Below, one piece after another: positions 1-30,137 of a stretch of 64,000 nucleotides of DNA. A model generated the notes under the pieces. That model was given only the letters and a program-made list of their open reading frames with translations, searched no databases and was not told the DNA's origin. Source of the stretch: Anaerocolumna sp. (GTDB lineage: Bacteria > Bacillota > Clostridia > Lachnospirales > Lachnospiraceae); contig JAQSXJ010000004.1 in assembly GCA_029256725.1 (NCBI GenBank), forward strand, positions 26,890 through 90,889, read 5' to 3'. A program made the translations under genes and the position numbers. The first letter of the stretch is position 1; every line of letters begins with the position of its first letter.

Positions 1-585
1 GAGGAGATTTTTGAAAAGTCCGTTACAGAGATTTCAATTAAGACCAGAATCGGAAAAGAACAGCCGGATGAATTCTATGACCTGATTCAGATCTATAATA
101 AATATCCTCTTAAGGAGCTGATCATTCATCCAAGAATTCAGAAGGATTTCTATAAAAACAAACCTAATCTAACGGTCTTTGCGGATGCGCTAAAGACGAG
201 TAAGAATCCTGTCTGCTATAATGGAGATATCTTTACACTGAAGGACTTTAAAGAATTCAATCAAAAATTTCCGGAAGTAGATACCTTAATGCTTGGCAGA
301 GGACTTCTTGCCTATCCGGGATTGATTGCTGCAATTAAGGATAATAAGCAGCCGGACAAAGAAGTATTCAGGCAATTTCATGACAAAGTATATGAAGATT
401 ACCGTAAGGTCCTCTCTCCTGACAGAAATGTACTGTTTAAGATGAAGGAATTATGGATCTATATGAGCACTGTTTTTACCGATTATGAGAAATACCTGAA
501 GATGATTAAGAAGTCAGAGCAGTTAGACCGTTATGAAGAAACGGTTGAGAAGCTATTTCGAGAGCAGGAAATTGTTATAGAATAA
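1..585 (+). CDS. dus: tRNA-dihydrouridine synthase, C-terminal part (5' end outside window)
   Basis: Open frame from base 1 reads EEIFEKSVTEISIKTRIGKEQPDEF...ELIIHPRIQKDFYKNKPNL...VCYNGDIFTLKDF...TLMLGRGLLAYPGL, typical Dus family; ORF track gives only the part from 289. Confidence 0.85.
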   Translation, partial: EEIFEKSVTEISIKTRIGKEQPDEFYDLIQIYNKYPLKELIIHPRIQKDFYKNKPNLTVFADALKTSKNPVCYNGDIFTLKDFKEFNQKFPEVDTLMLGRGLLAYPGLIAAIKDNKQPDKEVFRQFHDKVYEDYRKVLSPDRNVLFKMKELWIYMSTVFTDYEKYLKMIKKSEQLDRYEETVEKLFREQEIVIE

Positions 586-617
586 ATATTATGGTTTGAA
601 CGTTAGTTTTTCGCAAT

Positions 618-836
618 GGGACGGCAATTTGCATAAAACAGAAAGACTCATACTTCGATTACAAGGTATAAGAAGTCCTAATTCTCTGAAAATTTTGCGC
701 TTGATATATTATAGAACAGATAACTCGCTCCGCTCAAACAATCTGTTCTATAATATAGCACAAAATTTTCAGAGAAAAGGACTTCTAATACCTTTCCATA
801 GGCGTATTCGTTCTTTCTATTTTATGCAAATTGCCT
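618..836 (-). repeat. Long-hairpin dispersed repeat, copy 1
   Basis: Reverse complement matches copies 2 and 3 (GCCTATGGAAAGGTATTAGAAGTCCTTTTCTCTGAAAATTTTGTGCTATA...AGAGAATTAGGACTTCTTATACCTTG...GCCGTCCC); arms of ~100 nt are imperfect inverted repeats. Confidence 0.85.
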
Positions 837-973
837 GTGCTCATATGGACGTTAGACTTTGTTCAAATAAATATATAAAATTAGTAATATTAAGAAAACA
901 ATATAACTTAATCAGGTTGGTAAGATTTACTCTTTATAGTATTTTGAAATATCTACCAACCTGATATAAAATG

Positions 974-1855: not shown

Positions 1856-2120
1856 GGCGGTACCTCCATAACTAGAGATTATATTTAGGTTAGTTGATTT
1901 TATATTTATAGGTTAAATTGCTAACAGCTGTTTTTATTACTTCTAATCTCTGTAATAAACATACGCTATCACGTCGGGTGATAGTCAAGAGATTATTTCA
2001 ATATTTTTATGCCATATTTAAAATCCAATTATGCTATATTTTTAGCCTTATCTATCTAAGTTTCTCTTTTTTTAAATTCTCATTATCGATTCAATTGTCA
2101 AAAGCCTTGCTACCACACGA

Positions 2121-2364
2121 TTTCAGGCGAAGTGCAGAAAACAGAAAGAACGAATGTGCCTATGGAAAGATATTAGAAGTCCTTTTCTCTGAAAATTTTG
2201 TGCTATATTATAAAATAGATTGTCTGAGTACACATAGTGTACTCATGCGTAGCGAGTTATCTATTTTATAATATGTCAAGTACAAAATATTCAGAGAATT
2301 AGGACTTCTTATACCTTGGAATCGAAACATGAGTTCTTTCTGTTTTCTGCAATTCGCCGTCCCC
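2121..2364 (+). repeat. Long-hairpin dispersed repeat, copy 2
   Basis: Left arm GGCGAAGTGCAGAAAACAGAAAGAAC...TTAGAAGTCCTTTTCTCTGAAAATTTTGTGC pairs with right arm ...GTACAAAATATTCAGAGAATTAGGACTTCTTATACC...GTTCTTTCTGTTTTCTGCAATTCGCCG. Confidence 0.88.
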
Positions 2365-2534
2365 TTGTGAAAAACTGTCCTTTTCTAACTTCAAGGCATA
2401 AAAAAAGAGACAGATTTTCAATCAATCTACCTCTTCCTGTATATATATTACCACAAAATCCTGATTTTTTCAAGTCTTGTAATAGATTGGAAGCTGCCCT
2501 ATAATGAGATACCATCTTGGAAGGAGGATTATTT

Positions 2535-29822: not shown

Positions 29823-30048
29823 ATTTCAGGCAAATTACACAACTCAGAAAGAACAAATGCGCCTATGAAAAGGTATTAGAAGTCCTTTTCTCTGAAAATT
29901 TTGTGCTATACTATAAAACAGATTGTTTGAGCGTAGCGAGTTATCTGTTTTATAGTATGCCAAGCACAAAATCTTCAGAGAATTAGGACTTCTTATGCCT
30001 TGGAACCTGCGCATGAGTTTTTTCTGATTTGTGTAATTTGCCGTCCCC
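29823..30048 (+). repeat. Long-hairpin dispersed repeat, copy 3
   Basis: Same organisation and sequence as copy 2; additionally flanked by ~50 bp imperfect direct repeats (29748-29803 and 30063-30115). Confidence 0.88.
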
Positions 30049-30137
30049 TTGTAAAAAAACCAGCCTTCTATTGAATTTGAAGAGTAATTACTGATAATTT
30101 TATATTATGACATTTACCAGTATTTGAAAACTATTTT

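Follow-up and report, generated by a model that had tools for sequence, protein, structure and literature searches.

The window, by which we mean the whole 64,000-nucleotide stretch of Anaerocolumna sp. DNA that was analysed, contains three copies of a large hairpin repeat, here called F1. It is slightly more likely than not that F1 is a single family within a large and so far undescribed class of giant-hairpin RNAs in Clostridia. Such a class would be defined by a fixed apex (UGUYUGAGC / GCGAGUU), base tags (CAG / CGTCC) in at least two families, arms of ~100 bp that are free in sequence but paired, up to ~70 copies per genome and an orientation to both gene 3' ends and replication.

A first-pass annotation of the sequence had identified three homologous segments (618-836, 2121-2364 and 29823-30048), and sequence and homology place all three there, although the conserved unit, running from CAG to AAAAACT, is slightly longer than these bounds. 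Copy 1 occupies 605..837 on the - strand (CAG 837-835, CGTCC 623-619) and is delimited by homology, fold, alignment and orthologs in two related genomes, G012 (Clostridium sp. KNHs205) and G014. Copy 2 lies at 2124..2376 on the + strand (CAG 2124-2126, CGTCC 2358-2362; sequence, fold, homology, orthologs and alignment) and copy 3 at 29827..30058, also on the + strand (CAG 29827-29829, CGTCC 30042-30046; sequence, fold and homology). A 50-copy alignment and anchored profiles set the unit as CAG to CGTCCCCTTGTGAAAAACT, with ends of the form CAG-stem-CGTCC. The annotation had described near-complete self-inverted repeats with arms of ~100 nt, and each copy is indeed an imperfect palindrome (~233-253 nt) that folds as a single extended hairpin [free energies of -113.7, -113.7 and -115.2 kcal/mol; z = -17.4, -15.4 and -16.0; matched by 0/200 shuffles for the three copies]. 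Both conserved sequence blocks that it listed are right; its terminal GCCGTCCC holds for one end, the other end being CAGG.

The F1 consensus has 76 pairs over ~230 nt, with arms of ~100 bp. The stem retains its internal mismatches and an asymmetric loop, GCUAUA / AUGUCAAGC; conservation at these positions is mostly 95-100%, with two positions of the loop at 57% and 69%. The apex reads UGUUUGAGC-GUA-GCGAGUU and is near-invariant except for one U/C position and a variable loop insert, and save for the U/C position its columns are 88-100% conserved in 116 copies. It is found at 722..740 (- strand, TGTTTGAGCGGAGCGAGTT) in copy 1, where sequence and conservation define it and where it is common to other hairpin families, and at 29924..29942 (+ strand, TGTTTGAGCGTAGCGAGTT) in copy 3 by sequence. 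In copy 2 (2221..2258, + strand; alignment columns 99-138) a 20-nt hairpin insert separates its halves, TGTCTGAG..GCGAGTT. Outside the unit there is a poorly conserved inverted repeat (ATTCAAGTGTCAAAAG / CTTTTGACACTCAAAT) that decays between orthologs. The left flank of copy 2 (2090..2123, + strand, TTCAATTGTCAAAAGCCTTGCTACC..), weakly conserved in the profiles and likewise decaying, is one half of this type of imperfect outer inverted repeat, GAGTGTCAAAAG-like. In G012 (L157, G012:C3:1970900-1978500) tandem repeats of a ~37-nt unit (AAAACTAAAACCATGATTATATAAGGATTCAGGTTGTAA-like) stand in place of this flank, and a short version of the array is present in G014.

The high genome-wide copy number suggested by three copies in the window is borne out in the source genome, G000 (a draft of 5.5 Mb in 176 contigs with a contamination estimate of 6%). 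Full and partial copies there total at least 45: blastn with copy 2 as query returns ~40, and 55 distinct full, short or partial copies occur among the fetched loci, where some pieces may count separately; all F1 copy numbers are lower bounds. Within the genus there are dozens of copies in G012 and G014, ~12 long and short ones in G010 and a few in G004 and G009, and F1 was not found in the remaining congeners checked. Outside the genus, a search of 397 genomes of the same family with a short-form covariance model gave only weak matches; one recognisable copy lies in another genus (G199, locus L288). Phage and plasmid collections gave no match to F1, and viral contigs contain no exact F1 20-mer. 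Some of the short forms in G000 (L113, L112) derive from long orthologs by internal deletion. In G010 a short form of ~96 nt, consisting of the basal stem only (GAATGCGCCTTGGAACCAGCGCATGAG core; L081, L122-L130), has multiplied with strongly covarying stems and without the apex, so spread seems not to need the apex.

The terminal tags identify a second family. Across all fetched loci the pattern CAG-[8-bp arm]..[arm]-CGTCC picks out 99 distinct hairpins, compared with a mean of 0.37 and a maximum of 17 in 114 permuted-tag controls; we read the highest control as F1 shifted by a few bases. Thirteen of the 99 form F2, which is ~238 nt long, has a stem unrelated to that of F1 and shares with it both the ends and the apex UGUYUGAGC..GCGAGUU. 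Of the 78 pairs in F2, 42 occur as at least two Watson-Crick types, and on its + strand G-U outnumbers A-C by 31 to 5. Examples (CAGATGATT..AATCATCGTCC) lie 0.1-2 kb from F1 at L189:2478-2715, L140:2253-2493, L139:2241-2478, L010:2424-2662 and others. Where F1 and F2 occur within 2 kb of each other they are always arranged CAG-to-CAG with the tags outward. We rejected these inverted pairs as composite transposons, since the spacers are unrelated between loci and the arrangement would also fit two separate elements, each at the 3' end of one convergent gene. A hairpin in another genus (G176, L267:1501-1591) has an unrelated stem and the same ends, CAG-GATATGTAC..GTACATATC-CGTCC.

The window by itself could not reveal that other hairpin families, spread across Clostridia, have the apex and terminal tags in common with F1. 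Matches to TGTYTGAGCN{1,30}GCGAGTT are present in 78 of 397 genomes of the same family (maximum 69 copies, in G000), against 0-1 matches per genome to the reversed pattern. In the class Clostridia 68 of 391 genomes have them, with a maximum of 72 copies in G541. About 25 of the first 30 apex loci top long hairpins, mostly of -85 to -257 kcal/mol for ~280 nt, whose stems are unrelated to F1 and several of which end CAG..CGTCCC. Between the apex halves many of the loops form small covarying hairpins of their own (GAGCCTCGAAGAGGCGAG, GAGCAGCGAAGCTGCGAG). In 24/27 cases the + strand has a better fold than the complementary strand, a comparison that includes the apex itself. One such hairpin of another family had no match in phage and plasmid collections. 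The apex 19-mer also occurs in at least 80 stretches of viral contigs, with strong hairpins in 25/79 among the matches listed; because these viral 19-mers lie mostly outside strong hairpins (as in L332, L392, L337 and L353), the pattern needs a fold to be counted. In these four loci the 19-mer apparently coincides with the 3' end of a phage ORF (..CLSEAS-stop). We infer, short of proof, that all apex-bearing hairpins form one homologous class, and recurrence of the apex on unrelated stems in many Clostridia suggests a class of structured RNA repeats not described before.

Comparison with the sister species establishes that F1 copies are old and vertically inherited, which the first-pass annotation could not see. 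The DNA identity of G000 with G012 and G014 is 87-88%, and ~40 groups of occupied loci are common to the three genomes; most F1 loci are common to both sister species, with the flanking intergenic DNA scrambled. Both relatives have an element at the sites of copies 1 and 2; its core can be aligned from end to end and shows paired changes, and intergenic DNA beyond the element soon becomes unalignable. Over 49 one-to-one ortholog comparisons core identity is 0.90-0.96 vs 0.55-0.82 for the 40-nt flanks.

The compensatory substitutions in the arms that the annotation had proposed to look for are present between orthologs and between paralogs. Counted on 31 independent ortholog pairs, one per locus, two-sided changes in the arms number 128 vs 14.7 expected from the per-site rate, and pairing is kept in 115. 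Among 35 paralogs 98.6% of cells are paired and 32 pairs have changed on both sides, giving 138 two-sided cells vs 24.9 in shuffles (equalled in 0/500) and 6-19 when partners are slid. The covariation of F1 thus exceeds its controls, as expected of a structured RNA. It is also asymmetric between strands, G-U exceeding A-C on the + strand in each of three genomes [62:18, 75:26 and 46:10; cells among relatives are non-independent, and per-pair sign tests give p = 0.004-0.014 per genome]. In G000, where the routes were split, the excess arises through both G-C and A-U. A replication-linked C-to-T bias would be expected to push the opposite way for lagging-oriented elements. Because of the two-sided changes, the conserved mismatches and the excess of G-U over A-C, selection acts on the + strand structure, and F1 is neither a decaying MITE nor a self-correcting palindrome.

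The explanation we favour, at about an even chance of being correct, is that F1 is an old REP/MITE-like repeat, once mobile, that is now retained for a giant + strand hairpin, most likely an RNA. The hairpin is predicted to be transcribed. Its apex would consist of tandem G.A pairs, a typical RNA feature, closing a small G-C stem-loop, and would serve as a binding site for a protein or RNA, presented by a stiff dsRNA-like arm of indifferent sequence. The hairpin might act locally at gene 3' ends, by limiting read-through or convergent transcription or by fixing RNA 3' ends. Past mobility would have relied on a trans-acting enzyme that recognised hairpin and tags and inserted the element mostly in lagging-strand orientation, downstream of genes.

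The genomic position of F1 is shared ground between this RNA explanation and its nearest competitor, that the hairpin is kept as single-stranded DNA for an HUH/Y1 transposase, gyrase or a replication protein in the manner of REP/BIME elements, which we consider possible though unlikely. Like REPs (PMC3733652), F1 is found a short way from stop codons near the 3' ends of genes, in gaps between convergent or unidirectional genes. The CGTCC end is at a median distance of ~50 nt from the convergent right-hand gene's stop codon, and in ortholog-collapsed counts the right-hand gene is convergent in 41-42 cases vs 15 in the opposite orientation, the left-hand gene dividing 32 to 24. As seen from copy 1 the convergent right-hand gene is a 98-codon ORF (289..585, + strand; ORF calls are mechanical) that stops 20 nt from the CGTCC end. 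Orientation to replication is biased as well, with 25 lagging and 8 leading elements in G014 (dnaA at 3.01 Mb, terminus assumed opposite) and 9:1 lagging by GC skew in a sample from G541, of a different family of Clostridia. This bias favours a single-stranded DNA target; with most genes lying on the leading strand, however, orientation to genes and orientation to replication are confounded. No intrinsic terminator was called at F1 copies, and the left flank has no conserved strong promoter, just weak TATGAT-like conservation. At tandem-gene loci the + strand is not transcribed by any neighbour gene, and therefore an internal or weak promoter must be assumed.

The CGTC-type end tag and the inverted F1-F2 heteropairs with tags outward are likewise REP-like, and degraded IS200-type tnpA fragments lie ~20-280 bp from F1 in 3/3 degraded cases in G012 and G014 (L235:1450-1647, L241:1438-1593 and L244:1518-1691), each faced by the CAG end. 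The - strand end, GGGGACGG, is one base off GGGG[AT][CG]A[CG], a motif of transposase-linked inverted repeats (PMC3733652, PMC6006769). The tnpA remnants and this likeness are only a lead, because G000 and G010, despite many F1 copies, have no match to a Y1 transposase; the presence of such an enzyme does not track the element. No intact tnpA was found flanked by F1. Against the single-stranded DNA reading stand also the unrelated spacers between pairs, the tandem G.A apex and the retention of orthologs without transposition, which requires a function other than transposition. Against the RNA reading, recognition of single-stranded DNA would also favour G.T over A.C on one strand. An RNA is the best reading of the retained structure, single-stranded DNA being less likely.

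That F1 is a non-functional MITE, a dead transposon derivative whose palindromy reflects only origin and recent spread, is improbable. The first-pass annotation had offered a MITE-like element or a repeated structured RNA, and both halves find support: a MITE-like element from dispersal, copy numbers that differ by lineage and the imperfect outer inverted repeats, a structured RNA from strong compensatory evolution on one strand. F1 is multi-copy, non-coding and genus-specific, is absent from several congeners and includes truncated copies and the amplified short forms of G010, as a MITE would. However, most loci predate the split of the three species, the core is far better kept than the flanks, pairing is maintained by double changes and target-site duplications are lacking. 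The 7-bp ACGTTAG repeat (600-606, 849-855) that had been suggested to flank copy 1 is present but is not such a duplication: its left member is missing from both orthologs, and the GTTAG within it is the 3' end of the element itself (..AAAAACTAAC) in reverse reading. Pattern searches found no gene-bearing pair of the same outer repeats, hence no autonomous transposon with a transposase gene. An empty site in relatives was likewise sought; copy 3, a truncated remnant in G012, is absent in G014, but alongside a larger local deletion, so that there is no clean empty site. The ortholog data largely refute a dead MITE.

Compensatory change alone could also come from template switching or from conversion between paralogs; orthology of the flanks argues only partly against conversion. 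Self-correction of quasi-palindromes, in which template switching copies one arm onto the other and gives apparent compensation without selection, is an established mechanism for imperfect palindromes and would suit the many double changes relative to single ones, but here it is very improbable, because adjacent internal mismatches and asymmetric loops persist and because it offers no reason for a one-strand preference for G-U over A-C.

If this class exists, dozens of unannotated giant hairpins lie near gene ends in each of many Clostridia, including gut Lachnospiraceae and other families. Freely evolving paired arms below a fixed tip would then offer a natural handle for finding a binding protein, and would test whether high-copy palindromic repeats such as REPs are selfish or functional; in this case, retention through compensatory change can be measured directly at orthologous sites.

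No Rfam family scores above gathering at the hairpins of the window, the F2 loci or the loci in other genera, where there are weak chance matches only, and we found no description of this element in a literature search in which coverage of subscription papers was thin. The RAYT/TIRYT-flanking inverted repeats (PMC3733652, PMC6006769) resemble F1 in the near-match at its - strand end and the tnpA remnants beside some copies; F1 differs in that no intact tnpA was found flanked by it and that G000 and G010 gave no Y1 match. Closer are the CGTC-tagged REPs [Di Nocera et al. 2013 (PMC3733652)], which like F1 are dispersed intergenic palindromes with a CGTC-type tag at one end, adjoin the 3' ends of convergent or unidirectional genes, form opposite-orientation pairs and have no dedicated transposase. 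Those repeats are 20-40 bp long with stems of 8-9 bp and a CCA tail, whereas F1 has arms of ~100 bp, a conserved apex and conserved internal mismatches, and its hosts, Clostridia, are absent from the phyla listed for CGTC repeats (PMC3733652). F1 therefore falls outside the CGTC-tagged REPs by size and tail, and outside MITEs by target site and partner. The bcr1-bcr18 repeats of the Bacillus cereus group (PMC3446304 and references therein) are likewise clade-specific, dispersed and intergenic; in the parts of that source available to us some are MITE-like and some have conserved RNA structure and are transcribed in UTRs, and, compared by description only, none is described there with a giant, freely varying stem under a fixed class-wide apex. 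By analogy F1 appears to work like a REP/BIME or bcr-type repeat, being dispersed, palindromic and placed at gene 3' ends, and there is a substantial chance that this dispersed structured intergenic repeat heads a new RNA class.
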